A stretch of DNA of 64,000 bases, taken from assembly GCF_007474545.1 (NCBI RefSeq), contig NZ_VKOG01000005.1, positions 118,124-182,123 of the forward strand. Reading direction: 5' to 3'. Positions 36,938 to 55,903 of the stretch are shown piece by piece (position 1 is the first letter of the stretch; each line of letters starts with the position of its first letter). The notes under the pieces were generated by a model. It saw only the letters and a program-made list of their open reading frames with translations, had not been told where the DNA came from and ran no database searches. The translations under genes and the position numbers were made by a program. Origin of the DNA: Chryseobacterium binzhouense (GTDB taxonomy: Bacteria > Bacteroidota > Bacteroidia > Flavobacteriales > Weeksellaceae).

Positions 36938-37025
36938 GGAGAGTTGGCAGAGTGGTCGATTGCGGCAGTCTTGAAAACTGTTGACTGTAACAGGTCCGGG
37001 GGTTCGAATCCCTCACTCTCCGCCA
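36938..37025 (+). tRNA. tRNA-Ser (anticodon UGA), CCA encoded; island integration site
   Basis: The gene folds as a class II tRNA: acceptor GGAGAGT pairs with ACTCTCC, the anticodon loop CTTGAAA has TGA at 36972-36974, a long variable arm follows, and the T-arm is GGGGGTTCGAATCCCTC. The discriminator G is followed by an encoded CCA at 37023-37025. Its 3' end and terminator are repeated at 55828-55903, marking it as the attachment site of the island that follows. Confidence 0.95.
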
Positions 37026-38565: not shown

Positions 38566-40668
38566 TTATTTAGAAGCCCATTCAATAATTAATTTGAAAG
38601 GCTCTCTTTTTTTATTTCCTCCAATAATTTCAATATCTAAAGTATTGTTTGGATTAATTCCTAAGTTATATCTAAACTGTTGATTATAAAACTGAAAGAC
38701 AGGATTGGTATTTGGAAAATATTGACAACCTTCTATTCCTCTAGTAAAATATGATTTGTAACCTGTAACTTTTTCCAACCAGCCAATATTGAAATTATAA
38801 TTTTTGAAAAAGCTTGTATGTGAATGATTATAGATACGCTCACCAATAATGTAATAAATATATAATTGTTCTTTGGCATTCCTTATTAAAGATAAGTCTT
38901 CGTATTTATTAATCATTTTTAATATGAACTGTTTTTGAATTTCTACTAAAAATTCGTACAAACTTAATTTGTCAGAAAGGGTTGCAAACTGTTTGGCAAA
39001 TAGTATTATTGAAGGATGTCTTCTGAAACTTCCATGTACTATTCTTGAATCACCTGTTTGTTTATACAAACCTGTTATTAATAAATTGCCCCAAATTCGA
39101 TTAAAATTATCTCGGGCTATTTCTTCATAAGCATTGAAAATTGAAAGTAATTTTTTTACTTCTTTGTCTGTGTAAAATATATTTTGTAGTTCAACTGTTT
39201 TGAAATCTTCTTCTGTTTTAGTAAAAGGAGATAAAAGTAAGTTGGTGATACGTCCAGTTAAATATTTATGGTCTTCTATTTTGAAAAGTTCATTTTTGAA
39301 TGACGCAAAGTTTAGATAAAGTTTCGCCTTAAATATTTCTTCTTTCCTTTGATCAACATTAAAACCTATCAATTTATTGTCATCTGATAATTCAGATAAT
39401 ACCTGATAAACATTGTCATCTGAAATAAGGTTATGTAATGAAGAAATTAGTCTTGACCATTCTCGTCTAGAATTATCATCCGTATTTACAATAAGATTCC
39501 TTACAACTCGTATACAATCATTAAGATTCTCCTTATTTTTTTTGTAATAGGAATAACGTAGAGCCAAGAACAGAATAAATAATTGAGTTGTATCTCGTTT
39601 CCCATCTATAACATCTTTTAAAATATGACTTAGAGATTCACCATCCCATAAAACAGGCTCTTTTTTTTCTTTGATTTCTTTTATAAAATCAAATGAAAAA
39701 ATAAGAAACCGAAGATTATCTTCTATTGAGTAAATAGTTTTTAAAAGTCTAAAATCAAGAAAGTTTGTTTCATAAGTTTTACTAGATCGATATTCCGCAT
39801 CTTTAAAGTATAGCATTTCTGTTATAAAACTCAAAAAAGACATAAATGGAGTATCAATGATATAAGAATTTTCTTCTTTATAATCCCATAGATTTTCAAC
39901 CCATAAATATTCAATTTTATCTTTTACCTGCTCCAATAAAGTATGATTATATTGGATGATTTTAGAAAATTCTGATTTAAAATTTTCAAAATCTGTAAGC
40001 ATTTTGCCTCTTGCATTCATTCTGATATAGAGGTTTTCAGTTAGACCAAATTCATCTAAATCTGTAAAATAAAATGAAATTAGCTGCTTATCGTCATCAA
40101 TGATTTTATCTAATAATTTTAAGTCTGAACTTATTAAACTTGGATTTTTAGAAAAAGTATCCAGCATATTCAACATACCAAAAACCGTAGAGTCATTTTT
40201 CCATTCATCATTAAACCACACAGAATCTTCTATTTGATTCTTAATCTCAGCAATGCTATCTACTTGGTCAAAATCCAAAAGTTTCTTACAAAAATCGTGT
40301 GCTGATGGTCTTGTTTCGTATGTGAACTTTGATAGTATTTCCTTTACATCATTTAACCTGTTCTCTTTAACCGCAATAAAATAATACAATAAAAATAGCG
40401 TAGTAAGTCTTTGCTGACCATCTAAAGGAATAAAGACTTTTTGCCTAATATCATCTTTTACCTCGGTTAAAATAGAACCGTAAACAAAATCTAATTCTAT
40501 TGGTTGTTCTTTGATAATTGAATTTATTAGAAAATCATTGATAAACCTCTCTCTTAGTATATTAACTTCAGCTGTTTGACGTCCTTGTGCGTAATCTCTT
40601 TGTATAATTGGTACTTCAATTTTATTATAAGATTTACAAAGTGACCAAAAGGTGTATTTGTTATTCAT
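38566..40668 (-). CDS. DUF262 domain protein, second gene of a tandem pair
   Basis: The 700-residue protein opens with the DUF262 (GmrS-like, ParB/Srx-fold) signature: VPIIQRDYAQGR at 20-30 and FIPLDGQQRLTTLFLLYYF at 79-97. DUF262 in GmrSD-type type IV restriction enzymes binds and hydrolyses nucleotides and senses modified DNA. The long remainder is helical and I see no clear DUF1524 HNH motif, so this member may be the regulatory or sensing partner. It follows the first DUF262 gene by 8 bp, so the pair is one operon. Confidence 0.82.
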   Translation of the reverse strand: MNNKYTFWSLCKSYNKIEVPIIQRDYAQGRQTAEVNILRERFINDFLINSIIKEQPIELDFVYGSILTEVKDDIRQKVFIPLDGQQRLTTLFLLYYFIAVKENRLNDVKEILSKFTYETRPSAHDFCKKLLDFDQVDSIAEIKNQIEDSVWFNDEWKNDSTVFGMLNMLDTFSKNPSLISSDLKLLDKIIDDDKQLISFYFTDLDEFGLTENLYIRMNARGKMLTDFENFKSEFSKIIQYNHTLLEQVKDKIEYLWVENLWDYKEENSYIIDTPFMSFLSFITEMLYFKDAEYRSSKTYETNFLDFRLLKTIYSIEDNLRFLIFSFDFIKEIKEKKEPVLWDGESLSHILKDVIDGKRDTTQLFILFLALRYSYYKKNKENLNDCIRVVRNLIVNTDDNSRREWSRLISSLHNLISDDNVYQVLSELSDDNKLIGFNVDQRKEEIFKAKLYLNFASFKNELFKIEDHKYLTGRITNLLLSPFTKTEEDFKTVELQNIFYTDKEVKKLLSIFNAYEEIARDNFNRIWGNLLITGLYKQTGDSRIVHGSFRRHPSIILFAKQFATLSDKLSLYEFLVEIQKQFILKMINKYEDLSLIRNAKEQLYIYYIIGERIYNHSHTSFFKNYNFNIGWLEKVTGYKSYFTRGIEGCQYFPNTNPVFQFYNQQFRYNLGINPNNTLDIEIIGGNKKREPFKLIIEWASK

Positions 40669-40676: not shown

Positions 40677-42485
40677 TTAATTTGTTAGATAAGGCTTTAG
40701 CTTAGAACTTAAATCTTGAAAATAACTTTGTTTATCGTCATTTCCCCAGTAATAAGATTGAAGATTAGTATTGCTATAGTACTTTAAGAATATATTTTTT
40801 GTTGCAATAGGGATATATTTTCCTTCTTTTTCCATTTGAATTATTCTATTTCTTTTTACTGGAAAAATAGCATTGTTTAGAGAAGAATTATCCTTCTTAG
40901 AAAGCAAAGCTAAATTATCTAATATGTGAATGGAATCAGAATCGAATAATTGAATTAGTTCAGATTTTAATAAATTAAAGTCATCAATATCAATTTTTTC
41001 GCTGTTCAACATTTGTTGAACTTTGTTTTTTAGAGTAGTCAAATCTGAGGTGTTTTTTTCATTCTCAACTTCATTCATACCTTTTGATACTTTCTCAATA
41101 TCATTAATATCTTCTATTGCAATGTAAGTTTCTTCAAGCCATTTTTTTATAGCTTTTTCATCCTTCATTTCTTTTGATTGTTGAGCATGAATATGTTCAA
41201 TACTCCAGCCACCATCATTTTCTATCTTTTTGTATAAATTAAAAGGAAATCTGTTTTTTTGAGCAGATTTTACTAAGTTAGATGTAACAATATTATGTAA
41301 TAAGAAGACTTTCTTTAAATCGTTTTTATTGATTTCATAAGACATGTTATTTAAGTCTATGTCTGATACTTCTGATATAACTTCATTTAGAGCCCAATTT
41401 TTAAATTTAGATTTTTCGCAGTTAGACATATCAATGATGTGTCTAACATTTGAAATTGAATTGTCTTTTAAGGCCAATAAAAAACCTATGTGATGATATA
41501 AATAATCGTTTTCAAACCAGTGTTTTAACTTACTGAAATATTCTTTTGTTTTATTCCATAACTCAATAGCATTCTCTTTTTCTTTCTCTGGATTATCTGA
41601 TTTGATTTCTTTTTCAAACCACATATAAGTCGAATATCTTTTTATATTATTTTTTGAAATAAGCTTAAAAATAAATTCAATAGTAGAAGAAGTTTCTTCT
41701 AATGTTTTATTGTTTAAAAAGTACCAAAATTCTTCATTTCTTAATTCCATTTCTATACGGTGCCATTCACTCGAAATTTCAGCTTGTCTCAAAATAGATT
41801 CCCTCTCAGTTAATCCATATTTTATTTTAGATAACAATAAAGCTCTGATTAATTCTGCATCTGTCAAGGGTATTTTTCCAATATTCAATCTATTGAATAT
41901 ATCTATCTTCTTTTTTTCGACTTCATCTGAACCATCAATGTTTTTAAGCTCTTCTATTTGGTACCATATTATCTCTACTTTCTTAGTCAGTGTTGAATTA
42001 AACTCATCAATGTAACCAACATCATTTTTAGTTTTACTTTCAAACCAATTTTTAATGATATCATACGCTTGACTCATATAATGAAAGTCCGGATTCTCGT
42101 CACTATATGTGTTGGGAGATAAACTCTCTAAAAAATTTGTGCTTTTTCCTCTCTTTTCAAATATGATAGAATATTTCGGTCGATTTAAATAGTTGAATAT
42201 TATATTCATTGTAATAAGGCGTTGTTGTCCATCTATTACTTCCCAAATATTCAAACCCAGCTCATCAATTGATGGCACAACAACTATTGGTTGTAAGCAA
42301 TACTTCTTTTCATCAGAATTCATAAAATTATGAATATCATCTAGCAAAGCTGTCACGTGTTCTACATCCCACCTATACCCCCTTTGATAATAGGGAATCA
42401 AATAATGTTCAAATCTAGCATCTCTATCAGCAGTTTTATCATTGAGTATAATTTTTCCGATTGGAACTAATTCAATTTTATTCAT
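40677..42485 (-). CDS. DUF262 and DUF1524-like protein, GmrSD-type candidate nuclease
   Basis: The 602-residue protein has the DUF262 motifs IPYYQRGYRWD (30-40) and WEVIDGQQRLITM (81-93), then a helical middle, and near residues 425-435 WSIEHIHAQQ followed much later by DNLALLSKKDNSSLNNAIFPVKR, which match the histidine and asparagine positions of DUF1524 His-Me finger nucleases. This is the fused GmrS-GmrD layout of type IV restriction enzymes. The HIHAQ replaces the more usual HIxPQ, so activity should be tested. It is the first gene of the DUF262 pair. Confidence 0.82.
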   Translation of the reverse strand: MNKIELVPIGKIILNDKTADRDARFEHYLIPYYQRGYRWDVEHVTALLDDIHNFMNSDEKKYCLQPIVVVPSIDELGLNIWEVIDGQQRLITMNIIFNYLNRPKYSIIFEKRGKSTNFLESLSPNTYSDENPDFHYMSQAYDIIKNWFESKTKNDVGYIDEFNSTLTKKVEIIWYQIEELKNIDGSDEVEKKKIDIFNRLNIGKIPLTDAELIRALLLSKIKYGLTERESILRQAEISSEWHRIEMELRNEEFWYFLNNKTLEETSSTIEFIFKLISKNNIKRYSTYMWFEKEIKSDNPEKEKENAIELWNKTKEYFSKLKHWFENDYLYHHIGFLLALKDNSISNVRHIIDMSNCEKSKFKNWALNEVISEVSDIDLNNMSYEINKNDLKKVFLLHNIVTSNLVKSAQKNRFPFNLYKKIENDGGWSIEHIHAQQSKEMKDEKAIKKWLEETYIAIEDINDIEKVSKGMNEVENEKNTSDLTTLKNKVQQMLNSEKIDIDDFNLLKSELIQLFDSDSIHILDNLALLSKKDNSSLNNAIFPVKRNRIIQMEKEGKYIPIATKNIFLKYYSNTNLQSYYWGNDDKQSYFQDLSSKLKPYLTN

Positions 42486-42599: not shown

Positions 42600-43238
42600 T
42601 TAGTTTACATTCAATAGTAGTATAATGATAATTATTGGCGGAAATACTATTAAAAAGTGATATACAAATTTTGTCCTAAAATAATATTCAATCTTTATTT
42701 TGAAGACATCGTAATTTGATAATAAATGATATTTAGCAGTTTTAGTTTTAAATAGCTCATTATCTATCTTTAAATGATTTTCATATCTCTCCAAAATGTT
42801 TTGGTATTGATCAGAAATTTTTTTAGCAAATATCTCCTTATCTTTTATAGTTTGATTCTCAGTTAGTGTTTTATATATTCTTAATTCGTTATAAACTTCA
42901 GAAAGTTCCAAACCGCAATCATGAAATTCCTTAGACTTAACTGAAAAATCTTTAGCATTCTCAATTTGTCCAAATACCAATGCTAGAATAGATAAACTTG
43001 TGATGGAATATGCAATTAAATCCTCATTTAGTTGATTGAAGTGGAGATTATAAACTCCCAAAAGTCCAACAGCAGTAAGATAAACTGACAATAAATTAAT
43101 AGACAAATTAGATAAATTTGCGGTTTGAGTTAACCTAGTGCTTGCTCCAAACCTAATTCCCTTTGTTGACCACAATTTATAATTTAATTCTTCAAGAAAT
43201 GTTTTATCTAAATAATCCTTATATGTTTTGCCTTCCAT
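42600..43238 (-). CDS. SLATT domain membrane protein
   Basis: The 212-residue protein fits the SLATT superfamily: a short N-terminal helix (WSTKGIRFGASTRL), two close membrane helices (about residues 43-65 and 72-90), a cytoplasmic helical region with DFSVKSKEFHDCGLELSEVYNEL, and a C-terminal hydrophobic helix (FLIVFPPIIIIILLL). SLATT proteins are predicted pore-forming effectors in nucleotide-signalled defence systems; no cyclase-like gene is adjacent here. Its upstream region has the island's shared palindrome-N21-TATATTTG promoter. Confidence 0.75.
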   Translation of the reverse strand: MEGKTYKDYLDKTFLEELNYKLWSTKGIRFGASTRLTQTANLSNLSINLLSVYLTAVGLLGVYNLHFNQLNEDLIAYSITSLSILALVFGQIENAKDFSVKSKEFHDCGLELSEVYNELRIYKTLTENQTIKDKEIFAKKISDQYQNILERYENHLKIDNELFKTKTAKYHLLSNYDVFKIKIEYYFRTKFVYHFLIVFPPIIIIILLLNVN

Positions 43239-43298: not shown

Positions 43299-43343
43299 CA
43301 AATATATCTACTTATGTCTTATTTGAATTACGGTTATCCGTAA
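43299..43343 (-). promoter_or_regulatory. Palindromic operator and promoter of the SLATT gene
   Basis: TTACGG-TTAT-CCGTAA (43328-43343) lies exactly 21 nt upstream of TATATTTG (43306-43299 on the minus strand). The palindrome takes the place where a -33 TTTG box would be. The same layout recurs at 51412-51456 and, less perfectly, at 45982-46026 and 55251-55295. Confidence 0.7.
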
Positions 43344-43515
43344 ACGACAAAAATAAAAACCATTATAAAATCCACTATCAGTATTTTTACTGAATTTAAT
43401 TCATATTTTTGAATGATATAAAACGTTGAAAATCATTAATATGAAATTGATTCAATTAGAATCCTTTAATATTTGAAGATAATTAGGAACATATTATAAG
43501 TAGTTTAAAATTGCA
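43344..43515. other. Gene-free stretch between SLATT and CxxC microgene units
   Basis: I see no reading frame or hairpin here apart from the palindromic promoter on its left and the terminator on its right. It is AT-rich and contains no repeat that I can recognise. Confidence 0.5.
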
Positions 43516-43546
43516 TAAAAAAGAAGCAAAGTAAAACTCTGCTTCT
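43516..43546 (-). terminator. Terminator of the CxxC microgene
   Basis: An 11-bp stem (AGAAGCAGAGT / ACTTTGCTTCT on the minus strand, one G-T pair) with a 3-nt loop is followed by T6. It overlaps the stop codon of the small gene. Confidence 0.8.
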
Positions 43547-43673
43547 AATTTCTGTGTTGACCTGGTAAAGATCTGCAATGTTGGATTACATTTTCTAAAC
43601 GGCCTAAGCGCATTCTAGTATAGGCTCTCACGAACACTGGTTTCCCACCAGCACATTGTACACATTGTGTCAT
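43545..43673 (-). CDS. 42-residue CxxC microprotein
   Basis: This short frame starts at ATG 43673 and reads MTQCVQCAGGKPVFVRAYTR for its first 20 residues, then a basic region (MRLGRLENVIQHCRS) and ends LPGQHRN. It has CxxC at 4-7 and a HC pair near 36-37, so it could bind one zinc. It is flanked by a textbook promoter 62 bp upstream and a terminator overlapping its stop, making a self-contained unit of about 210 nt. It resembles small unnamed proteins I remember from flavobacterial mobile elements. An alternative is a small RNA. Confidence 0.6.
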   Translation of the reverse strand: MTQCVQCAGGKPVFVRAYTRMRLGRLENVIQHCRSLPGQHRN

Positions 43674-43734
43674 AATAAACGGGTTTTAAGTTAATAATTA
43701 TAACATCGACCCCCTTATGACTTGTCTACATTTA

Positions 43735-43765
43735 CAAATGTATTTTTATTTTACCACTTATCAAA
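43735..43765 (-). promoter_or_regulatory. Promoter of the CxxC microgene
   Basis: On the minus strand TTTG (43765-43762), a 19-nt spacer and TACATTTG (43742-43735) match the Bacteroidota vegetative consensus exactly. It lies just beyond the 3' end of the AAA ATPase gene. Confidence 0.75.
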
Positions 43766-43782
43766 TAGATTATAAAATATTT

Positions 43783-45953
43783 CTATTTCAAATTTTTGGT
43801 TTCTTGATATAAATTAAGTAAATGATAAACGGACATATCTATTAATGGTTCGTACATAAATGAATTTACATGTATATTTTCAGGTGTCATTAGGTTAACC
43901 TTGTCTATAATTCCTAAGTTAAAACTTGTAGGGTATTTTTTCTTGTACATATTAGACAGTACTCTTGTTTGAACATGATTTATTTTAGTAAGGTCTGCTT
44001 CTGGCAACTTAGATATCATATATTGTTCAGCTTTTAATCTACTAGCAATCGCCAAAGTAATTTTATTTTCCAACAAAATTTCATTGATGTTTTTTTCTTC
44101 AATTATTGAATCCGCAGTATCGAAAATAAAATTCTGAATTTTAATAGTTTTATCAAAATCAACTTCCTTGTCTTTCAGTTTGGTGATTCTATTCTTATAA
44201 ATAGTAAAAACATCATCAATTGTAATATCTTTTGAATTCGTTTTTTCGTGAAGGCAGCTTGTAAGTTTTATGCAGTCATCTGTATCCGATGAATCTGAAT
44301 AATCAATTATATTACGAATAAAAGAGATAAGACTTATGAAAACTTTGGGATCATGTGGACTTTTCAAAAACTCTTTAAAAAGATCTTTTTTATACAAACC
44401 TTCAACAATATTTATCGTTCGATTTTCATCTTTGGATGTCATATATGTTTGCTTATCCATGTTTAATCGTGATGCAATTGTTCTATAAAAATCGAAGTTA
44501 TGTGTAAGAATGAGTGATTTAAATTTTTCTGATTGATGAAGTTCAATAATATATTCTATTATAGCATATTTATTTTTATAATCAAAAGAGTCCGCTATGT
44601 CATCAAAGATTAGCAATGTTTCTTGAGAAATATTTTTTCTTGATTCTATCTCAAATAAAAACTGCAAAATAAAATATGCCCGTTGTTCACCTTTACTTAG
44701 TATTTTTAATAAATTTTCTTTTGTCTGGGTTTTGGATTCTTCATTTTTATCTGTAAAAATAAATTCCAAATTAGCAGTTTCCCGTTTTAAAATTACGTCA
44801 TGTAGGTTTCCCATTTTTACTTCAAATGGTACATAAAATCGATCATTAAATTTTTTGATTATGTCTTTCCATAGCTCTACCTCTTTTTTAGATTCTGAGA
44901 TAATAATATCTAATTCTTTCTTTTTCTCTTTGTACATTTCAGATAATGCTTCAGCATCATTCTTAACCTCAGACACGAAGCTAGTCCAAACCTTCTTTTT
45001 GAACCCTTCATAATCTTTTAAATTTACCAGTAAGGAATTATCCTGCTCAATAACTTGTTTGAATGCCCTCAGATCTATATTTGCTCCAATAGCTTTGTCA
45101 ACTTTGTTAAAAGATTCTTTTAACTTCTCATCAGCTAAAATTCTTTCAAGCTCAGCATTATATATTTCTTTTAATTGTGATGATTCAGTAATTTCTATTC
45201 CATCTTCCAAAACGAATTTATGACCGGCATCAAAGTAAGAGTTATCCTCTATAGATTTCATAATTTCATTTGCCTGATAGGTTCCGAAAGTATTATCACC
45301 AGATAATTTAAATAACTTGGAATTTGAAAGGATTTGATTGTAGTTTTCTACATAATCATCTAACAAGTTTTCATTTTTATCTAAGAATTTTTTTACAATT
45401 CCTTTAGTGTCAAATACTGTATTATACTTAAACGTAATTTTATCTGAGTCCTCAGTAAGCTGATCCACATTTGAGGATAATACGTCAAAGAAGTTTTTCT
45501 CAGAATCGTTGCCAAAAGTTCCCATGTATTCAACTTCACAATCAGTACTCTTTGATATTGCTTTAAGCTTTTTTAAAAGTTCAGCTTTAGCAGTATTCAG
45601 TTCAGAATAAATTTGATCATATTTTTCTTTAAGTTCCTTACGAGCTATAAATGATGTTATTTTATTTGTCGCATCATACGAGTTGTCTTCTGCGTTGATA
45701 ACCAAAATTGACTCTGGATTTATTTCTAAGTCATCTGATAATATTTCAAATTTTGATTTCTTATTATATACAACATCTTTTGGAAGATTTTTCTTATCAT
45801 TCTTCGAAATCAAATCAAATGTTTTAGCGAATGAAGTTTTCATTGTTCCGTTCGGCGCATAAATAAGGTACGAATTAACCTTACTGAAATCGAAGTCATG
45901 TTTAATTTTCCTATGCCGAAGCAATTTTCAAAATCTAATTTTAAAATTTTCAT
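43783..45953 (-). pseudogene. AAA_13/RloC-like ATPase with a frameshift near its 5' end
   Basis: The 713-residue main frame has a P-loop-like IYAPNGTMKTSFAKTF, a long coiled-coil middle, the ABC-type signature region LSKGEQRAYFILQFL, Walker B LLIFDDIADSFD and an H-loop LILTHNFDFYRT, as in PrrC/RloC-type (AAA_13) ATPases of defence islands. The frame opens only at a TTG (45924). Directly upstream in another frame an ATG at 45953 gives MKILKLDFENCFGIGKL, which joins KHDFDFSK if one A is added near 45904-45910; ENCFGIG is the expected start. So the gene appears frameshifted, or starts at the weak TTG. The C-terminal 150 residues (ENIHVNSFMYEPLIDMS) have no known nuclease motif that I can see. 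Confidence 0.72.
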
Positions 45954-45981
45954 GGTTTTTTATTTAAAAAAATATCAGTTC

Positions 45982-46026
45982 CAATAATAAGATTTATTTC
46001 GATAACAAATATGCGTAAAACCGTAA
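45982..46026 (-). promoter_or_regulatory. Degenerate copy of the palindromic promoter upstream of the AAA ATPase gene
   Basis: ATGCGTAAAACCGTAA (46011-46026) keeps the CCGTAA half-site and a weak left half. TATTATTG (45989-45982, minus strand) lies exactly 21 nt away. A CATATTTG also overlaps the palindrome at 46013-46006. Weaker than the other copies. Confidence 0.4.
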
Positions 46027-46221
46027 TATGGAATTTTTTATCAAAAAATCAATAAATTTTTTATATGCGCAAAAACATTGCGTAGTAGGATTCTAATTTC
46101 GTATGATGATAATTAGAAAGTGTAATAGATAACTCATTTTTTTTAAATATTCGAATTATCTGGTAATGTGCACTTACTTAATTACTGAAAGTAAAATTAT
46201 AATAAATTAAAATTTTCTATC

Positions 46222-46443
46222 ATGAAAAAAAATCAACACGTCGTGCCGCATCAAGGAAAGTGGGCAATAAAAGGAGCAGATAATCAAAAGAATACCGTAA
46301 TTACAAATACACAGAAAGAAGCTATTGATAAAGCAAGGAATAATTGCTATCAATCAGAATCTGAGCTTTTTATTCATGGAAAGGGTGGCCAGATCAGAGA
46401 TAAAAATAGTTATGGTAATGATCCAAGTCATGTAAGAGGCTAA
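46222..46443 (+). CDS. DUF2188 family protein
   Basis: The 73-residue protein matches DUF2188: HVVPHQGKWAIKGADNQKNTVITNTQKEAI, then a Gly/Asp-rich end (FIHGKGGQIRDKNSYGNDPS). This small fold occurs alone or fused to larger proteins; its role is unknown. It is divergent from the AAA ATPase gene and 157 bp upstream of the 301-aa gene. Confidence 0.85.
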   Translation: MKKNQHVVPHQGKWAIKGADNQKNTVITNTQKEAIDKARNNCYQSESELFIHGKGGQIRDKNSYGNDPSHVRG

Positions 46444-46600
46444 TTATCAAAAATTAATGAAAGCAAATTATCAGTGACGTTTTTCCACTGTTGGTGAAAA
46501 GCAAAATTTAAAATAATTAGGTATGAGTTAGATATATATATATTAAAAGTAGATGATGAACAAAAAATTAGAGAAAATTATAATTTAATAAAATAACAAA

Positions 46601-47506
46601 ATGGAAACATTTAATACTTATTTTACAAAGTTAAGAAATAAAGATATAGACTTTGTAGACATTCCTTTAGGGGAAGATTTAGAGGCATTTATTTGCCCAT
46701 TCTTAATTGAAAATAATAAACATAGTAATCCTGTAGCTCTCGAAGTCTATGAAAGAGTACATCAGTTTTTAATAAAACTTAACAGAGATTTTATTAAGCC
46801 AAACAAAAGAAATGAGGGGATAGAATTTCTTTCTCATCTGCACGAACCAAACGAATATCATTTAGGATATTCCGATAGAAACAAAGGTAAAGCAGTTTCA
46901 GATGTAAGAGCAGAAGTAATTTATGATGCTTTGAGAAACAACTCATTTGCAAAACAAAATATTGCAATTACAAACGAAGCGCATTTTGTCCTACTACTTG
47001 TAAAAGGCATTGGTCAAGATATTATGTCAGATATTATCGCAAATGTTTGTAGAGATATTTTTGCTGAATCAACTTTGAAAATATGTAAAAAGCATAAAGT
47101 TTCTACAATTTCAGCTAAGATTGAGTTTTATAATGCCATTACTAAAAAGTGGGAAACAAAATCTGCTGATTTACCAAATTTTGCAGGTAAATCAATCATA
47201 TTATTACCAAAATTTATTATTAGCGGGGGAAGAGCCTACTCGAATTTATATAATTGGTTTATTGCAAGAAATTATCTTGCTTTTGAAATTCTTAATAGAA
47301 AAAAACCGCTTTCTTCAGATGGTAAGTTTATCTTCAAATTGAAAAACGGTACAAGAAAAGCAATTGTAAAGAAAATTTATCAAGCATACAGAAAACCAAA
47401 AGATGAATTAATTGAGTTTGTCAAAAAATTCAATGGCTCATTAGATGAATTTGTTTGGTATGCCAAAGAGCATTATCCTGAACTTAATTTAGATGATTTG
47501 AGATAG
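46601..47506 (+). CDS. Hypothetical protein of the island
   Basis: I do not recognise this 301-residue protein. It has an acidic N-terminus (FVDIPLGEDLEAFICPFLIENN), a central region with GKAVSDVRAEVIYDALRNN, and a basic, tyrosine-rich C-terminal third (KLKNGTRKAIVKKIYQAYRK). There is no signal peptide, membrane helix or cysteine cluster. The alternation of hydrophobic strands and helices suggests one globular cytoplasmic domain. It ends in a clear terminator and is the last of two plus-strand genes in this part of the island. Confidence 0.6.
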   Translation: METFNTYFTKLRNKDIDFVDIPLGEDLEAFICPFLIENNKHSNPVALEVYERVHQFLIKLNRDFIKPNKRNEGIEFLSHLHEPNEYHLGYSDRNKGKAVSDVRAEVIYDALRNNSFAKQNIAITNEAHFVLLLVKGIGQDIMSDIIANVCRDIFAESTLKICKKHKVSTISAKIEFYNAITKKWETKSADLPNFAGKSIILLPKFIISGGRAYSNLYNWFIARNYLAFEILNRKKPLSSDGKFIFKLKNGTRKAIVKKIYQAYRKPKDELIEFVKKFNGSLDEFVWYAKEHYPELNLDDLR

Positions 47507-47517
47507 AATATTGATTA

Positions 47518-47553
47518 AATAATTGCGGTCAAAAGCCGCAATTATTATTTTTT
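47518..47553 (+). terminator. Terminator of the 301-aa gene
   Basis: An 11-bp perfect stem (AATAATTGCGG / CCGCAATTATT) with a 7-nt loop is followed by T6. It may act on the convergent HEPN-motif gene too. Confidence 0.82.
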
Positions 47554-47576
47554 ATAGAATATCTTTTGTATCTATT

Positions 47577-49124
47577 TTACAACTTAGTATTTTTATTCCA
47601 AATAATTAAGCAATTTTTATTTTCTTCTTTGACTCCCCAGGCTGGTAGAACGTTATTAATTTTTTTTGTATTGTTAATATGTAGAGTTGCTACTAGATGA
47701 TTATTTCGTCTTGCATCGCGAAATGACCTTTTTCTTAAATCATTATTATATATATGGATTTGTAGATACTTATCAGGAAAAATAAATTCTTTCAAATTAG
47801 TCGTATGCTTTTTTCTTTTTTCGGACTTTACCAATGAAATTATATCTTTTGATTTATTTCTAATATAATCTTCAATTTTTTCATCAGAAATGTCTAGAAA
47901 TATGCCAGCATTTTCTATAACATTATAACTCTTCTTATTATGGTGCTTAATATATCGTACATTAACTATCTTGTTCTTATCAGTGTAGTTTTGAAAAAAA
48001 GAAGTTTTATAAATTTTTAATAAGTCTTTTTTCTCACCGAAATACTTTTCTTCAAAAAAAAATGTACCGTCGGTAATAATCACTTTTTCCCCGGTGTAGT
48101 GTTCTCTTAGCTTTTCAAGATCAATAATCTGCCAACATGATAGCTTATATTTTGTTTTAATTTGAATAAAAAAATTATCATACTTTTTAGGCAATAAATT
48201 TTCTAATGTTATTGCTGTGTAAACTGCAGAAAAATTCATGAATTTTCGACTGTTCAAATTTGATTCTACGAGTAAATTATATTGTTTCCCTTTTAGTATT
48301 TCGCTGTCATAACTATGAATAATTTTCCAGCCATAATGATTGGCCTTATATCGTAGTTCAATTTCCATTATTGACGATGGAACGGTGATACCATGATTTA
48401 TTAAAACATCTAAGTATTGAAATATGACTTTTTTATATACTAAAATTATAGCATTTACAATGTCGGTTAGGTTGTCAAATTCTTTTATAAAATCCGAAGC
48501 ATAAAATGCTTTAGTATCTTTCCTATCTTTAAATTTTATTACAGATGATTCAAATGTAACTCCTCCGTGTGCGATTGCATTACGAAGAGTATTGTTATAT
48601 ATATTTGTAAGGTCATCAAAAATTTGATATTTTTTTAGAGTATCAATACAATTATAGATGTCAAGATTATCTGTACCTTTTTTGTTTGTAACCCTTAGAA
48701 AATAGGCAATTGGTTTTATAAGTCCTAACAATACAACATCATTTATTTTTAGATATTCGTACACGATTTTCTCACTGAAAAAATACATTAATTCCGCTTC
48801 ATTGCTAGGCAATAAATTTTCATGAATTGCTTTTAAATTCAATTCATTCATTGTCTTTATTGCATGATTAAATTCAAAAGAAAGGTTATTTAATATCTTA
48901 AAAAAGTCTAAAAGATCGTTTGGATTGTCAACTAAACTTTCAAAATACAAATTTACATCAGTATAAATATTTTTATTATAAAATTTACTTGGAGATTCAT
49001 AGATGTACTCACCCAATGAATGAAAGTTATCATGTTTACAAGCATTCAATTCGGGGAATTTATCCAAAATTATTTTCTTTTTCCTTTCTAAAATTTTATA
49101 AGTGAAAAAGTTTTTATCGATCAT
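47577..49124 (-). CDS. HEPN-motif protein of unknown family
   Basis: The 515-residue protein is helical in its first 240 residues, with the sequence NTLRNAIAHGGV placing Arg181 and His186 in the Rx4-6H spacing of HEPN RNases. The C-terminal half is beta-rich and basic, with repeated lysines (KSEKRKKHTT). I cannot assign a named family. HEPN domains in defence islands usually cut RNA or act as toxins; here that is inference from one motif and the context. The gene follows the DUF6236 gene by 14 bp and is likely coexpressed with it. Confidence 0.6.
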   Translation of the reverse strand: MIDKNFFTYKILERKKKIILDKFPELNACKHDNFHSLGEYIYESPSKFYNKNIYTDVNLYFESLVDNPNDLLDFFKILNNLSFEFNHAIKTMNELNLKAIHENLLPSNEAELMYFFSEKIVYEYLKINDVVLLGLIKPIAYFLRVTNKKGTDNLDIYNCIDTLKKYQIFDDLTNIYNNTLRNAIAHGGVTFESSVIKFKDRKDTKAFYASDFIKEFDNLTDIVNAIILVYKKVIFQYLDVLINHGITVPSSIMEIELRYKANHYGWKIIHSYDSEILKGKQYNLLVESNLNSRKFMNFSAVYTAITLENLLPKKYDNFFIQIKTKYKLSCWQIIDLEKLREHYTGEKVIITDGTFFFEEKYFGEKKDLLKIYKTSFFQNYTDKNKIVNVRYIKHHNKKSYNVIENAGIFLDISDEKIEDYIRNKSKDIISLVKSEKRKKHTTNLKEFIFPDKYLQIHIYNNDLRKRSFRDARRNNHLVATLHINNTKKINNVLPAWGVKEENKNCLIIWNKNTKL

Positions 49125-49138
49125 TGTACAATTATTAC

Positions 49139-50128
49139 CTATCTTAATTTCTTATCAACTAACGCAAGATACTTCATCCCAGTTTGATCAAAAACATTTT
49201 CTGCTTTTTCAATTTTCAATGCTGAGTATATCGCATTAGCAAATCCCGGTAGACCCCAAAGCATAGATTTTAAATTACCTGAAGCTGCGAAAGCCTGAGC
49301 GCCATTGATAAAACCACAGATAGAACCAAATATAATATTTCCTATTTGGCTCTCGTTCATTTTTGCGGTCAACTCACCTTTTCTAATCACCAGTTCTCTA
49401 ATCTTTTCGTTAAATAAATCAGTTCCTTCTTTAACGTTGGGATCAAGCACAAGGAGCTCAACTCTATTAGTAAAAGCCTCTAACAAATCACCATGCTTCT
49501 CTTTGAATCGCAGCATTTTATCAAGTTTTATATCGTGTGGAAGTGGAATTAAACTTTCTAAAATAGTTTCCCTTTTTTTCTGGTTTTTAAGATTTTTGCT
49601 AGTGTAAAACCTTGGTCTTAACTCATCAGTTGTAGGAATTCTATTTGTTTTAGCACCAATCATAGTGGCCACAAATTTCATTAATTGGTCTGCTGTTTTA
49701 GTCTCTACCTCATACCAGTTCCCTTCTGAACGACTCGCAAGGCCTAAATTAGTAAGACTATAAAATACCTCATCGTCAAATTTATCACCATGTATGCGGG
49801 CAGAAGAAAACTTCTGTGAATGCACCAAATTTCTTTGCAATTTACTGAATCGTTCCTGCGCTTTTTCGAGTGAGCTTTTATGCTTCTCAATCTCATTTAC
49901 GAAGGGTTTCGTAACCTCCCAAGGATTATCAAACACCTCGACAGGATTTACAGGTACAATTAATGACATCCTGACAAGTTCCATCATAAATGGATCATAA
50001 TGTTGCTCGGGATTCCAGAAATATTCTTGCGGTACAATCGCTGCAATATCTTTGTAGTAAAGAAGAGTTCTTACTGTCCAATTGTTGTCAGGTACATTGA
50101 TGTAAGGGTAATATAAAATATCACTCAT
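49139..50128 (-). CDS. DUF6236 family protein
   Basis: The 329-residue protein begins SDILYYPYINVPDNNWTVRTLLYYKDI, the pattern I know from DUF6236 proteins, which are of unknown function and often found in variable regions. The middle is helical and charged (KSSLEKAQERFSKLQRNL). A glycine/alanine-rich patch near the end (GNIIFGSICGFINGAQAFAASG) may be buried or membrane-contacting. It precedes the HEPN-motif gene on the same strand, and the two form a likely operon. Confidence 0.72.
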   Translation of the reverse strand: MSDILYYPYINVPDNNWTVRTLLYYKDIAAIVPQEYFWNPEQHYDPFMMELVRMSLIVPVNPVEVFDNPWEVTKPFVNEIEKHKSSLEKAQERFSKLQRNLVHSQKFSSARIHGDKFDDEVFYSLTNLGLASRSEGNWYEVETKTADQLMKFVATMIGAKTNRIPTTDELRPRFYTSKNLKNQKKRETILESLIPLPHDIKLDKMLRFKEKHGDLLEAFTNRVELLVLDPNVKEGTDLFNEKIRELVIRKGELTAKMNESQIGNIIFGSICGFINGAQAFAASGNLKSMLWGLPGFANAIYSALKIEKAENVFDQTGMKYLALVDKKLR

Positions 50129-50407
50129 AGTTTTTGGTTTTTAGTTTTTATAATTCGGTTACTTCTTATCCAATTCGTCTCTATTTTCATATAAAACATC
50201 ATGATGTTCATTTATTATGGCGAATAAATCCTTCATATCTCACAGGTTACTTATTTCTTTCGTAAAATTTTAGAAAGTGTACCTAGATATATACAATCCT
50301 AAGATTATCTATTCATATTTAAGTACCTTCATATGTTTTCTCACACAGCTTTGTTAAATATCCGCTACTTTCTGATATATATCAAAAAAGGATAAAATTT
50401 CTAGATT
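50129..50407. other. Gene-poor stretch upstream of the DUF6236 gene
   Basis: The only frame of note is a minus-strand ORF of 25 codons at 50159-50236 (begins MKDLFAIINEHHDVLYENRD), too short to call with confidence; it could be a small upstream peptide or a gene remnant. No terminator or TAnnTTTG box of quality was found. Confidence 0.4.
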
Positions 50408-50492
50408 CTACTGCGATGGCGGAGTTATAATTTGGGCTTCAGGTTTTATCCATTGTATTTCAACATCAAATTTTGGTGGTGGAAACTGTCTT

Positions 50493-51395
50493 CTAATTTC
50501 GTGTTCTAGTTTTGATTTTATGAGGATAATCAAGAATTTTTACTGCACTGTTTATATTTATGGATTTAGAAGTTTTATAATTTGGATCATAAAACAAATC
50601 GTCGCAAAATTTTATTGCATAAAACATTTGCCAAAAATAAGGCATAATACCTTTATGAACGCTGTCATTACAGAACTCAAAAATCTTTTGAACAATTTTC
50701 ATTTCTATTTTAAAATCGAATAAAGACCTATTTTTTTTAATAAAACTAAAAATAAAATTATGCTTTGTAAAAATCTTCTCGCCGTTATTATCAAATATAT
50801 CACCAAGCCCGACAATTCTATTCAATTTTAATTCAATAGTTTGTCTCAAAGCTACGGGAGATATAATAAATGCAAATTTATTATCCAATCTCTTATCATT
50901 AAAAATACTGTAATACATCAATTGAAATGTTCCTAAAAAATGCCATCTAGAATCATCTATATTGGCTTTGCCACTAACTATAAGGGTATAATTTGGATCG
51001 ACTTTCCTTCCAATATGATTTGCAAAAATTACGATATCATACAGTAGTTCATTAATTAAGAATCCATATTTTTTTATTCCAATATGATTAAAATTTCCTT
51101 CTTTACTCATTTTCTCTTTAATATCTAAGAAACTATAAAATGCAGCAGCAAAATGATTCTTGGCGTATACATCTATTTCAGAATCTGTAATTTCTCCTCG
51201 TAATTTATCAAATATACTATTCCCGATAGTAGTATCCAAAACTTTGTTTTTATTTACAATAGAATTCAATCGTCGGAATTCCTTCTCTGTCTTAAGGAAA
51301 GCTTCTTTTGCAGACATTCTGGATTTGACTGTTTTATACTTATCACTTCTTGCTTTATCCTTTAGGACATAAATAAATTCGTGTTTAACTTTCAT
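50493..51395 (-). CDS. Hypothetical island protein with a probable 3' frameshift
   Basis: I do not recognise this 300-residue protein. It is mainly helical and basic, with a KYGFLINELLYDIVIFANHIG segment and NDSVHKGIMPYFWQMFYAIKFCDD near the end. The last residues after SAVKILDYP look out of frame: removing one A from the A5 run at 50537-50541 continues as AVKFLIILIKSKLEHEIRRQ and on through FPPPKFDVEIQWIKPEAQ to a stop at 50408, a plausible native C-terminus of about 330 residues in all. It has the cleanest copy of the shared palindromic promoter. Confidence 0.6.
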   Translation of the reverse strand: MKVKHEFIYVLKDKARSDKYKTVKSRMSAKEAFLKTEKEFRRLNSIVNKNKVLDTTIGNSIFDKLRGEITDSEIDVYAKNHFAAAFYSFLDIKEKMSKEGNFNHIGIKKYGFLINELLYDIVIFANHIGRKVDPNYTLIVSGKANIDDSRWHFLGTFQLMYYSIFNDKRLDNKFAFIISPVALRQTIELKLNRIVGLGDIFDNNGEKIFTKHNFIFSFIKKNRSLFDFKIEMKIVQKIFEFCNDSVHKGIMPYFWQMFYAIKFCDDLFYDPNYKTSKSININSAVKILDYPHKIKTRTRN

Positions 51396-51411
51396 GGTTT
51401 TCGTATTAAAT

Positions 51412-51456
51412 CAAATATACAAAAGGTTTGGGTTAAATTATTACGGAAAACCGTAA
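51412..51456 (-). promoter_or_regulatory. Palindromic operator and promoter of the 300-aa gene
   Basis: TTACGG-AAAA-CCGTAA (51441-51456) is 21 nt upstream of TATATTTG (51419-51412, minus strand), which is 16 bp before the start codon. Same layout and spacing as at 43299-43343. Confidence 0.72.
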
Positions 51457-51574
51457 AAAGGAGGTCATAAGATTTCCAAGATATCTAAAGTTGTTATAAA
51501 TTTACCAAAAGTACATCTATGGAAGCATTAAAAAATCTAAAGTTATTTCAACTATTGCGGTTCTTACCTTATCA

Positions 51575-53932
51575 CTAAGTCTTTATAATACAACAAAGAA
51601 CTACATCAAAACTCAAAACGAGTTTGAGTATAAGAAATAAGAATTTAAAGGGACTGAAGAAGTTCTCCAACAATGCTCTGATGGTTACTATATAAAGAAA
51701 TAAAGTATGAAAATAAACGGATGAAATATATTTTCTCTCGGCGGTAAGAATTTGATCTTCTCCTTTTAATTTAGAACGGTGATTCAAGAATACGGAACTA
51801 TCCAAATTAATGAATATTTCCTGCAATTGGTCACCTTCTGAAACCGGATACATTACGATATTGTGTCCCATTTCAATTCCATTTTCTTCTAGGGAACTCC
51901 AATTTTCTTCTTTCACTTTATGAAGTTTCGGTAATCCAATGTAATCTTCATCATCTTCCTCTTGAGGTACTTTTTGATTTGGAGCTTCTTTGTCAGTGAT
52001 TTTCACAAGTATTATTTCCTGAAAAACTTGTCCTGGGGCAGTAAGAGAAGCTTGTATTTCAATTTCATCGCCAACATTTAATTCTTCTGTAGGCTCTAGT
52101 GTTAGTTTTATGGTTCCCTGATTAGGGCTGCTCTTAGCAATATTTAATACTCCTGAAACTTCCTTTTTTGTTCCAGGTTCCGTCCCTCCGGAAGTTTCAT
52201 TTCTTTTTATCTGTAAAACGCTGATTTCTAAATCACCGGAATCCTCGGAACGATCAAAATAATCATTTGCTACATCTGTATCAAATTTAATCGTTCTTTC
52301 TCCATTTTTAGGCAATGAGATAATATTGATTCCTTCTTTTTTGTTATGTAATTGAAATAACGATGGAAATCGCTGTGGCAAAAATGGCTTTACCTCTGTT
52401 TTAGGTTTTTGAGAAGCAGGCTTTCTATCCTTTTTTTCTTCCTTTTTCTCCTCTAGTTTTAAAGTATTTTGCAGCAATTTAAATAGATCACTGTTTTTAG
52501 GTAAATTTTTCGCAAATGATTTTATAAGTTCAGTAGTATCTTCATTCTCTAATCCAATACTTTCCTTACGTTTCCGATTAATTTCGTCTAATTCACTCTT
52601 CCTTAATTTCTTGCCCAAATATTCTCTCAATGCATTTGCTTCAGGTCCATCTTTGAGACGATCTCTAGAAGCCATAAATAACTCTTCTCTAAAGTCAGGA
52701 TCCATTTCAGTACAATCCACGTGAATCAGAAGATAATCTTTAAGAAGATTGAGTTTAAGAGTTCTGGATATAAATTCAGTTGTATAACTGCCGTGTACCT
52801 GTCCGTTAATGGAAAACATAACAGACATATTATTTTTAAAAAACCTGCTTCTTATAATTTCTCTGCTCTTTTTAACATCGTGTTTTTCTGTTTTAGGCTT
52901 AAAGACATAGCAGGTTACTTTAGCCCTACCGAATAATTCATCGACATATTCTTCAGAAAAATAGGTATCTATATAATCACTTTGTGCCTCTTCTAATCTT
53001 CTTTTTAAACCAAACAGATCTAATTCTAAAACCTTATTATTAGGGTATCTTTCTTTTCTATCAACGGTTAAAAGAGGGAGTACAGGTTCAAATAAAAATT
53101 CATTCAGACTTTGATTTAAATCTTGAGCAAAGCCTGAATAACCTATCGGAAATTGATAGGAGTACATTTTTATGATACTTCCTGTTATAAAACTTCTTCC
53201 TTGAAGTCTTAAATCTAAATCTGTTATAGGAAAATTAGGAATTTGATTATTTATTTTTAAATATTCAAAATGACTTGATCTTCTGTTGGTTCCAGATTCA
53301 CTAATTTTTCTTTGACGAATTAAAGTAAAGCCAAAATTGCCTGTATTATCATATCTTTTGGATGCAATCAATTGAAATCTTCTTTTTCCACAAAATACCA
53401 AAGCACCGCTTCCTCCCATATTATACTTACCCTGAACAAACTGAATATTAATTTTATTTCCTCTTACTAAAGAGAGAAATGTATCTTCAAATTTCTCAGG
53501 ATGCTGTCCTTCACCATTGTCATATATAATCACAGAAGTATTACGAGGAGGGCCATCTGCTAAAATCTGTATTTCTTCAGATTGTTTACGCCTATTCTGT
53601 TTTAAATCCCAGTTTTTATAATCCGGATAAAATAGATTGATAGCCTCTTCCATTGACTTAGGAGCTTCATCAGAATCAGGAGCAACTCCTTTCTCTAAGC
53701 ATTTTTTGGTCAGAATCGCATCAATAGAGTTGGTTACCTTTTCTACCAATGCGGCAATAGGACTTGATTGTTGATTTCGGACGATACCAAACATATTTTC
53801 GTTTCCGCCTAAAGGAAACCAGTTTTCATCTTTGAATACATTAGGATTTTGTTTAATTACCTCTTCAACTTCCTCTTCAGTAGGACTAAAATATAAAAGT
53901 TTAAAAAGGTCTTCTGTAGAAATATCAGGCAT
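51575..53932 (-). CDS. GHKL-family ATPase, partner of the cysteine desulfurase
   Basis: The 785-residue protein has a GyrB/Hsp90-type ATP site in its first 180 residues: Glu64 and Asn68 (ALVEKVTNSIDA), the DxGxG box at 138-142 (YDNGEGQ) and the glycine loop GKYNMGGSGAL at 168-178. The middle has a second domain with SMYSYQFPIGY-like strands, followed by a charged linker rich in Lys/Glu/Pro. The last 40 residues are hydrophobic and unlike the rest; in a different frame the end would be YIVTNHQSIVGELLQSL and stop at 51645, so a late frameshift is possible. It overlaps the upstream cysteine desulfurase gene by 8 bases (53925-53932), so the two are translated together. Confidence 0.75.
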   Translation of the reverse strand: MPDISTEDLFKLLYFSPTEEEVEEVIKQNPNVFKDENWFPLGGNENMFGIVRNQQSSPIAALVEKVTNSIDAILTKKCLEKGVAPDSDEAPKSMEEAINLFYPDYKNWDLKQNRRKQSEEIQILADGPPRNTSVIIYDNGEGQHPEKFEDTFLSLVRGNKINIQFVQGKYNMGGSGALVFCGKRRFQLIASKRYDNTGNFGFTLIRQRKISESGTNRRSSHFEYLKINNQIPNFPITDLDLRLQGRSFITGSIIKMYSYQFPIGYSGFAQDLNQSLNEFLFEPVLPLLTVDRKERYPNNKVLELDLFGLKRRLEEAQSDYIDTYFSEEYVDELFGRAKVTCYVFKPKTEKHDVKKSREIIRSRFFKNNMSVMFSINGQVHGSYTTEFISRTLKLNLLKDYLLIHVDCTEMDPDFREELFMASRDRLKDGPEANALREYLGKKLRKSELDEINRKRKESIGLENEDTTELIKSFAKNLPKNSDLFKLLQNTLKLEEKKEEKKDRKPASQKPKTEVKPFLPQRFPSLFQLHNKKEGINIISLPKNGERTIKFDTDVANDYFDRSEDSGDLEISVLQIKRNETSGGTEPGTKKEVSGVLNIAKSSPNQGTIKLTLEPTEELNVGDEIEIQASLTAPGQVFQEIILVKITDKEAPNQKVPQEEDDEDYIGLPKLHKVKEENWSSLEENGIEMGHNIVMYPVSEGDQLQEIFINLDSSVFLNHRSKLKGEDQILTAERKYISSVYFHTLFLYIVTIRALLENFFSPFKFLFLILKLVLSFDVVLCCIIKT

Positions 53933-55082
53933 AGTTAGAAGTTTTTAGTTGAGAAATAATTTCTTTAACTTTTTTAATCGTGTAAAGAATTTCACTTTCG
54001 GTATTGTATTTACTTAGGCTGAATCTTATACTCGAAAAAGCATTTTTATTACTTAATCCCATTGCTGTAAGAACGTGTGAAGGCTCTATTAGTTCAGAAT
54101 GACAGGCGGAGCCATTTGATACGCAAATGTTATCAAGCATTTTGATGAGTATGTCAGCTTCTATATTAGGAAAGCAAATATTCGAGATATTGTAGATTCT
54201 ATTCTCTCGATCTCCATTCACGAATGCTCCTTCAATGGTCAATAGTTCATTTTCCAATAAATCTCGCAGCTCTTGTACCGAAGACTTATTCCTTTCTATT
54301 TCATTTATACATATTTCACAGCTTTTGCCTACTCCAATTACTCCAGGAATATTTAATGTACCGCTTCTTTTTCCTTTTTCCTGTCCTCCTCCGTGTACCA
54401 GTGGCTGAAAGTTTATTGTTTTGGAATTTTGATAATATCCACCTATTCCTTTTGGCGCATAAAACTTATGTCCTGAAAAAACGAAATAATCTATGTTTAA
54501 ATCTTTCACATCAATTGGAATTTTACCAACTGCCTGTGTTGCATCCGTCATCATTAAAGCTCCAAACTGATGTGCTATTTTTGTAATTTCTTTTATAGGC
54601 TGTATTACACCAGTTTCATTATTTACTAACATAACAGAAACTAAAAGTGTTTTTTCTGAAATTACTTTTTTTAATTCATTTAAGTCTATTAATCCAGATT
54701 CGAGAACAGGTAAGTAAACAACATCAAAACCTATTTCTTCCAAATATTTACAGGTGTCAAGTATTGCAGAATGTTCAGTTTTAACTGTGATAACTTGTGA
54801 TCGTTTTGTTCTATTTGAAGTAACTACACCTTTTAAAATAGTATTAATTGCTTCGGTCGCTCCGGATGTAAACGTAATTTCTTTTGGTTCTGAATTAAAT
54901 AATTTAGCAACATTTTCCCTCGCCCTTACAATTTTTTTATTAATTTCAATTCCCAAAGAATGAGCACTTGAACTATTTCCATAAAGTTCTGAGAGATATG
55001 GAATTATTTCCCTTATCACTTCATCATCAACCTTCGTAGTTGAAGCATTATCAAGATATATATAATTTTGAGATGTAGACAT
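53925..55082 (-). CDS. Cysteine desulfurase, DndA/IscS-like
   Basis: The PLP enzyme takes sulfur from cysteine. I start it at ATG 55082 (MSTSQNYIYLDNASTTKVDD, 385 residues); the extra codons upstream begin at a TTG that overlaps a -7 box. Conserved parts are the PLP lysine in FVFSGHKFYAPKGIGG and the active cysteine in SNGSACHSELIEPSHVLTAMG. A housekeeping SufS/IscS would sit with Fe-S assembly genes; here it is in a mobile island with a GHKL ATPase, which suggests a role like DndA in DNA sulfur modification or another sulfur-based defence, but no dndBCDE gene is present. Confidence 0.85.
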   Translation of the reverse strand: MSTSQNYIYLDNASTTKVDDEVIREIIPYLSELYGNSSSAHSLGIEINKKIVRARENVAKLFNSEPKEITFTSGATEAINTILKGVVTSNRTKRSQVITVKTEHSAILDTCKYLEEIGFDVVYLPVLESGLIDLNELKKVISEKTLLVSVMLVNNETGVIQPIKEITKIAHQFGALMMTDATQAVGKIPIDVKDLNIDYFVFSGHKFYAPKGIGGYYQNSKTINFQPLVHGGGQEKGKRSGTLNIPGVIGVGKSCEICINEIERNKSSVQELRDLLENELLTIEGAFVNGDRENRIYNISNICFPNIEADILIKMLDNICVSNGSACHSELIEPSHVLTAMGLSNKNAFSSIRFSLSKYNTESEILYTIKKVKEIISQLKTSNYA

Positions 55083-55103
55083 TTTATTAAAATCAGATAG
55101 TAT

Positions 55104-55111
55104 CAAATATA
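55104..55111 (-). promoter_or_regulatory. Candidate -7 box of the cysteine desulfurase gene
   Basis: The minus strand reads TATATTTG, 21 bp before ATG 55082, so transcription would start after the TTG that opens the longer frame. No clear -33 box. Confidence 0.55.
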
Positions 55112-55250
55112 CTCATTTTACCTTATTATATTTTCTTAATCGTTTACCATATATCTAAAAATCAAATTTTATAATTTTTAATTTATGACATAGGATTAAT
55201 CAAAATTTCATCTTACAATTTCGTGAAATCTAAGTTTAATCTATTAGCTT

Positions 55251-55295
55251 GCAATATATAATGAATGATCTGAATTTGTTTACGATAATCCGTAA
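55251..55295 (-). promoter_or_regulatory. Palindromic operator copy at the right end of the island
   Basis: TTACGA-TAAT-CCGTAA (55280-55295) differs by one base from the perfect palindrome. TATATTGC (55258-55251, minus strand), a weak -7 box, is again 21 nt away. It is about 200 bp upstream of the cysteine desulfurase start. Confidence 0.5.
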
Positions 55296-55827: not shown

Positions 55828-55903
55828 AATCCCTCACTCTCCGCCAGTTGGGAAACCAAAATAAGCTAAAACGCTGTAAACATCAATGTTTACAGCGTTT
55901 TTT
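55828..55903 (+). repeat. attR: second copy of the tRNA-Ser 3' end and terminator
   Basis: The 20 bases AATCCCTCACTCTCCGCCAG, four differing bases (TTGG) and the 52-base terminator block repeat attL at 72 of 76 positions. No tRNA body precedes it. It marks the right boundary of the island; its hairpin (55868-55901) may also serve the minus-strand DUF1989 gene. Confidence 0.88.

Follow-up and report, generated by a model that had tools for sequence, protein, structure and literature searches.

A palindromic promoter element shared by island-borne operons in Chryseobacterium binzhouense and its probable response regulator

A composite element in an integrated island

The window analysed here, a 64-kb stretch (64,000 nucleotides; positions 118124–182123) of contig NZ_VKOG01000005.1 of Chryseobacterium binzhouense, contains an AT-rich island (26–33% G+C in windows of 38–56 kb) with a tRNA-Ser gene at its left border; about 20 nt of the 3′ end of this tRNA recur near 55829, and are followed there by the second member of an identical 52-nt repeat pair (Table 1). 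Given the AT-rich stretch, the copy of the tRNA end, the repeats and a tyrosine recombinase gene, the motif-bearing operons of the island are probably the cargo of an integrated element. All three places that carry a distinct promoter-like element lie inside it. This element combines the palindrome TTACGG-N4-CCGTAA with a −7 box of the Bacteroidetes sigma-A type (TAnnTTTG) 21 nt downstream (together, the composite), and its distribution and likely regulator, a chromosomally encoded response regulator (RR), are the subject of this study.

A motif scan of the window found two perfect palindromes and one with a single mismatch. The palindrome by itself (up to two mismatches) is a weak signal, with 3 occurrences against 0.82 expected and 6 of 100 shuffled sequences reaching 3. 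When the spacing and the −7 box were included (up to three mismatches), there were 4 matches against 0.07 expected, a number reached in 0 of 100 shuffles; these represent three distinct places, all on the minus strand (43299–43343 and 51412–51456 without mismatch, 55251–55295 with three), the fourth being an opposite-strand reading of the palindrome at 51441 (three mismatches). The original prediction had described four shared sites, each with a −7-like box exactly 21 nt away. The spacing was confirmed at the reported sites, with an exact box at two, and three of the sites stand; the fourth, at 46011–46026, is present as described with its box 21 nt off, but its composite needs four mismatches, a level at which 0.57 matches per window are expected, and because this site taken singly is at chance level we do not rely on it. 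As a set, places with up to four mismatches number six (maximum 3 in 60 simulated sequences), one of which lies in the flanking core (33954–33998, plus strand). The further claim that the flanking core lacks a full copy agrees with our scan, which found none there at up to three mismatches within the window, although there are many elsewhere in the genome.

Table 1. Features of the window (positions in the 64-kb stretch; aa, amino acids; ORF, open reading frame)
Feature	Position	Strand	Basis
tRNA-Ser (TGA), island left border	36938..37025	+	
52-nt repeat, left border	37031..37082	.	
Tyrosine recombinase, 334-aa ORF	37490..38494	+	PDB sequence match to IntI4 and XerA
GmrSD_N protein, 700 aa, probable operon with SLATT_5 (from gene order)	38566..40668	-	PF03235 E 6.1e-25
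GmrSD_N protein, 602 aa, probable operon with SLATT_5 (from gene order)	40677..42485	-	PF03235 E 5.7e-31
SLATT_5 protein, 212 aa, first gene behind operator 1	42600..43238	-	Pfam PF18160 E 4.9e-48
−7 box TATATTTG, 21 nt downstream of operator 1	43299..43306	-	exact TAnnTTTG
Putative operator 1, perfect palindrome	43328..43343	-	motif scan
713-aa protein behind degenerate site	43783..45924	-	PADLOC PDC-S46 E 1.2e-233
Degenerate composite, four mismatches, chance level	45982..46026	-	motif scan and simulation
300-aa protein behind operator 2	50493..51395	-	without Pfam, PADLOC or PDB sequence match
−7 box TATATTTG, 21 nt downstream of operator 2	51412..51419	-	exact TAnnTTTG
Putative operator 2, perfect palindrome	51441..51456	-	motif scan
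785-aa HATPase-like protein, probable operon with desulfurase	51575..53932	-	PF13589 E 5.7e-5, below family cut-off
Cysteine desulfurase, SspA/DndA-like, 144 nt behind operator 3	53925..55106	-	PF00266; PADLOC SspA E 1e-149
−7 box TATATTGC, 21 nt downstream of operator 3	55251..55258	-	two mismatches to TAnnTTTG
Putative operator 3, palindrome with one mismatch	55280..55295	-	motif scan
52-nt repeat, right border, tRNA 3′-end copy directly before	55852..55903	.	

Occurrence across the genome and genus

The motif had first been taken for a feature of the island, a view that a genome-wide search overturned. With the reversed motif pattern as control throughout, the C. binzhouense genome (3.61 Mb) holds 22 palindrome places at up to one mismatch (6 for the reversed pattern) and 24 composite matches at up to three (5 reversed), which rules out an island-private motif. 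Across 149 genomes of the genus, 1752 composite places were found at up to two mismatches, compared with 50 for the reversed pattern. Genes behind sites in the C. binzhouense genome include cas9, recognised by its N-terminal part; a gene for a CFI-box protein; and a gene for an HSDR_N nuclease that follows a DUF1508 gene. In addition, rmuC and a glycosyltransferase gene have the −7 box at a spacing of 22 (read by hand), and several other composite matches are intragenic. From 100 sites fetched outside the RR loci described below, the operator can be refined to TTAYGG-NWWN-CCRTAA.

By eye, a gene for a ParA-like ATPase also lies behind a site in this genome, and the leaders past the −7 box at L016:8001, L028:8001 and L046 share TTGACGNAATGCGT-like repeats before different genes. 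One perfect palindrome (C1:709266, L024) was rejected as a regulatory site, as by eye it belongs to a terminator-like hairpin with a T run behind it.

A two-component pair surrounded by sites

Sites surround a two-component pair at C1:388–391 kb that comprises, by adjacency, a TPR histidine kinase (HK) and a 221-residue RR. The RR gene (C1:388394–389056) lies on a contig other than that of the window, and its product is 95% identical to the RR of Chryseobacterium aahli. The original prediction had seen no regulator gene in the island, and this fits: the regulator is likely to be this RR, encoded elsewhere.

Among 80 named RR loci (mostly from Chryseobacterium, but also from Elizabethkingia, Pedobacter and Sphingobacterium), 72 have a composite 40–140 nt ahead of the RR and 71 have one up to 340 nt behind it. 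The loci contain 214 sites in all (two loci have none), and the reversed pattern does not occur in them. Exact −7 boxes that occur 8–37 nt from a palindrome (up to one mismatch) in these loci are spaced at 21 nt in 97 of 101 cases; in the C. binzhouense stretches and the window, 5 of 10 exact boxes are at 21, 3 at 22 and 1 at 24.

The site before the RR sits within the 3′-terminal part of the HK gene (in 69 of the 80 loci, an HK open reading frame with an HDx[VILM] box was found to run up to the RR start), which allows the conservation of DNA and protein to be told apart. In the 54 of these 69 frames that encode an N-x-x-x-R motif at the site (the other 15 were uncounted, those printed reading S-T-V-S-R), the Arg codon is CGT in 54/54, compared with 222 of 1391 Arg codons across the HK frames, and where the second residue is Thr its codon is ACG in 47/47, compared with 203 of 1616 overall. 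As both values are far above HK-wide codon use, the DNA as well as the protein is conserved at the intragenic site (that is, there is selection at the codon level).

The RR itself has a well-supported RcsB-like receiver: it matches Pfam Response_reg (31.5 bits; cut-off, 30.2), residues E9, D10, D59 and K117 are invariant in 39 sequences, and a profile of these 39 RRs finds RcsB chains as the best match among PDB sequences (E 2.8e-10), with the alignment reaching residue 191. An RcsB-like DNA-binding part is probable, given that the predicted model (mean predicted local distance difference test score (pLDDT), 90.1) combines the receiver with a helical C-terminal domain of four C-terminal helices. 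In the C. binzhouense HK, TPR_12 is above its cut-off and HATPase_c scores 24.6 bits against a cut-off of 26.4.

At the level of the order, site and RR largely occur together. Across 196 genomes (RR at E ≤ 1e-15; site at up to one mismatch), the RR was found in 45 and the site in 46, with both in 43 and neither in 148, and the reversed pattern gave 2 matches in all; expressed differently, the site is present in 43 of 45 genomes with the RR and in 3 of 151 without. Within the genus, 7 of 149 genomes gave no RR match. The 142 with the RR have a median of 12 sites (minimum 2), whereas the five without it that are at least 90% complete have 0, 2, 3, 3 and 4 (one-sided rank test, p ~1e-4, relatedness ignored); of the two incomplete genomes without the RR, one (G147) has 2 sites. 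Taken together, the identity of the RR as the likely regulator of the palindrome is well supported by these sequence comparisons.

Some features of the RR locus were noted in passing. The gene behind the post-RR site varies by genome (L087–L116: HSDR_N nuclease, DUF1508-like, small Cys-rich proteins and others), so that the spot beside the regulator appears as a variable-cargo spot; a gene of 278 codons divergent from the HK (L022:11045–11881) has a site of its own; and about 47 of the 214 sites fall on the opposite strand, some 2–3 kb upstream of the RR.

Genes behind the sites

The 100 sites fetched outside RR loci come from 12 genomes and are among the matches listed for them (a further listed site, G003:C2:1096694, is not part of the set). 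Seventy-eight precede a gene of at least 90 codons within 300 nt; the 22 that were dropped comprise 7 intragenic sites, 14 without such a gene (among them that of a cas9 461 nt from its site, L140) and 1 that was short. We scanned 77 of the targets (L125 was left out) and compared them with 99 promoter-proximal genes from 38 random regions (40 drawn, 39 fetched owing to one overlap, and L227 excluded for covering an RR locus). At 1e-10, the targets matched 252 PADLOC families and the random genes 19, counts that are inflated in that a single gene can match dozens of families. Nine of ten proteins picked by eye as likely defence proteins also matched, which is not an estimate of enrichment.

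Approaching the question from the defence genes, we found that 28 of 30 cas9 loci have an upstream composite within four mismatches and 19 have one within three (reversed pattern, 0/30), these being the best-scoring loci of a gene that is present in 77 of the 149 genomes. Within three mismatches, it also precedes 8/8 top-scoring KAP genes, a subset that was separated from the other 22 after the result was known and that seems QatA-like by PADLOC tally, and 4/6 SLATT_5 genes. Random genes carry it in 0/84 cases within three mismatches and 1/84 within four (84 of the 99 control genes had at least 400 nt upstream and were used). The upstream regions spanned 600 nt for cas9 and random genes and 1490 nt for KAP and SLATT_5, and the cas9, KAP and SLATT_5 loci come from related genomes. 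In a genome lacking the RR (G029), the 282 nt of sequence available upstream of cas9 contain no site (best, eight mismatches), although a single genome is concerned here and its cas9 may be of a different lineage. The C. binzhouense cas9 (L030:8070–12267; C1 near 1,253 kb) appears as two overlapping open reading frames, both of which match cas9.

Proposed mechanism and alternatives

Class-II activators sit at about −41.5. Mapped transcription starts in Flavobacterium psychrophilum are reported to place TAnnTTTG at −12 to −5 (PMC9723704), which puts the palindrome at −49 to −34, centred on −41.5. The original prediction had placed the palindrome at the −33 position; it does overlap the −33 box, yet mostly lies just upstream of it. 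That TTTG is lacking at −33 follows in part from the construction of the search, the palindrome filling that place.

We consider it likely that the palindrome is the dimer site of the RcsB-like RR beside the TPR HK, with a regulon that includes acquired defence genes. In this scheme, a signal would lead the HK to phosphorylate the RR, a dimer of which would sit at −49 to −34 in place of a −33 element and recruit RNA polymerase to TAnnTTTG (that is, class-II activation), and the RR would raise expression of its own gene from the promoter within the HK gene. The regulon would comprise cas9, KAP NTPases, SLATT proteins, OLD/GajA-like ATPases, methyltransferases and many genes of unknown role, and islands that carry the cassette along would thereby join their cargo to the host circuit. 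The earlier proposal that one activator or repressor controls separate defence modules gains support from sequence evidence as to a single regulator; as to its sign, the geometry favours an activator. As an origin of the site, the RR association is better supported than the DndB-type operator of which the half-sites had vaguely reminded the original prediction. A shared operator-like promoter serving separate defence modules is likewise supported, and the island of the window is probably a mobile defence island wired into a widespread two-component regulon.

Several observations weigh against this proposal. Two genomes have the RR without the site (G221 and G236) and three the site without the RR (G200 and G316, 2 sites each; G038, 1 site); in G286 the RR match holds a stop, yet 2 sites at up to one mismatch remain (in G111, likewise with a stop, there are 2 at up to two mismatches). 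The co-occurrence is partly built in, as G176, G207 and G280 have sites only beside the RR, and the genomes are related, the counts being uncorrected for phylogeny. G062, without an RR match, has 12 sites (87% complete, 410 contigs) and is a counterexample unless its RR is unassembled. The RR has no Pfam LuxR-type helix-turn-helix (HTH) match at E 0.05, only the receiver being matched. Among the targets, 6 of 30 drawn at random from the 77 have a PADLOC match, compared with between 2 and 21 of the 99 controls (a bound set by family tallies that sum to 21); many targets are without defence annotation, and an enrichment for known defence over all targets is unproven. The other KAP clades have the composite in 1 of 22. 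Finally, viral contigs carry the cassette, and in one (L440) the site precedes, by eye, protease-like and structural-type phage genes.

The viral copies bear on a different account, in which the cassette is chiefly a property of mobile elements and phages, with which it spreads, and its link to defence arises secondarily from islands that carry the two together. In a viral contig collection, 70 stretches contain the exact composite (L407–L476; 71 matches, 0 for the reversed pattern) and the window sites lie in an integrated island, but the best-conserved copies are those that flank the chromosomal RR and are under codon-level selection, and we regard this account as improbable. The viral copies may reflect exploitation of the host RR or carried cargo, or may point to another regulator. 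In other viral stretches, HTH-repressor-like and terminase-like genes were seen by eye behind the site. Chance palindromes in AT-rich DNA would be compatible with the mild enrichment of the palindrome alone in the window and with the site at 46011; for the composite, however, this explanation is rejected by the enrichment in window, genome and genus and by the spacing and codon tests, and we assign it next to no weight.

It is also conceivable, albeit unlikely, that the RR is a repressor, the bound dimers of which keep RNA polymerase from the −33 region until a signal releases them. The site does overlap the −33 position, and a response regulator, CovR, is reported to repress cas9 (PMC12216829). 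However, a spacing fixed at 21 nt would be needless for a repressor, and with the palindrome in the −33 place unbound promoters would have no −33 element. Less probable still is that another regulator binds the palindrome, for example a LexA-like S24 repressor of Bacteroidetes, with the RR merely one of its targets. The targets include rmuC and an sbcD-like gene, Weeksellaceae are described as having up to five such regulators, which are S24-family proteins with a DNA-repair regulon, and one of Elizabethkingia anophelis is reported to bind TTAC-AAATT-GTAA and so shares the TTAC/GTAA half-sites (PMC8565304). By contrast, the half-sites are N5 apart in that motif and N8 apart here, with a conserved GG/CC between them, and the refined site matches none of the three LexA-like palindromes given for Bacteroidetes (GGA-N5-TCC, CTAA-N5-TTAG and TTAC-N5-GTAA; PMC8565304); site presence tracks the RR over the 196 genomes, in a comparison that covered the sites and the RR.

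Relation to known systems

Local regulators of the BrxR type control defence operons through inverted repeats and are encoded inside one defence system, whereas a single chromosomal regulator is indicated here for many. The proposed activator shares with RcsB of the NarL/FixJ family (its best PDB match) a receiver with conserved acidic residues and phospho-acceptor position, a predicted helical C-terminal domain and a site position that suits an activator; it differs in lacking the Pfam LuxR-type match, in its TPR HK partner and in its many acquired defence targets. Two-component control of CRISPR-Cas is already known (PMC8523701, PMC12216829). In Marinomonas mediterranea, the HK and RR PpoS/PpoR are reported to control CRISPR-Cas and phage resistance (PMC8523701), but this pair is described as BarA/UvrY-like, with small RNA and CsrA homologues, whereas our data indicate a direct operator at many defence loci. 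CovR of Streptococcus agalactiae is similar in that an RR directly controls a cas9 promoter, and different in that it is described as a virulence regulator of another phylum that represses a distal promoter (PMC12216829). No title or abstract among the papers listed by our literature search, which left subscription journals and preprints mostly uncovered, reported the motif or the regulon, and none of the literature matches listed contained the exact palindrome strings.

On the question of how bacteria coordinate many separate defence systems, a single chromosomal regulator, its operator and its targets are proposed here from sequence over many genomes. We tentatively envision, as one possibility, a core immune two-component system of Chryseobacterium, Flavobacterium and related Bacteroidota that, on sensing attack, would turn on a genome-wide set of acquired defences (including CRISPR-Cas9) through one standard, island-borne promoter cassette, which phages would have adopted to time their genes by the host alarm; that phages may read the same signal is raised as a possibility. 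It becomes testable whether a common promoter links acquired defences to the host, with RR-lacking genomes as natural contrasts, and the unknown genes behind the site offer a route to new defence genes.

Further features of the island

Among ten island proteins scanned with PADLOC, DndB had no match, and other Dnd/Ssp families (that is, besides the SspA match of the desulfurase) were absent, save that the GmrSD_N proteins matched SspE weakly; the 785-residue HATPase-like protein had no PDB sequence match. A short open reading frame (37278–37523) overlaps that of the tyrosine recombinase and, by eye, resembles its N-terminal part.

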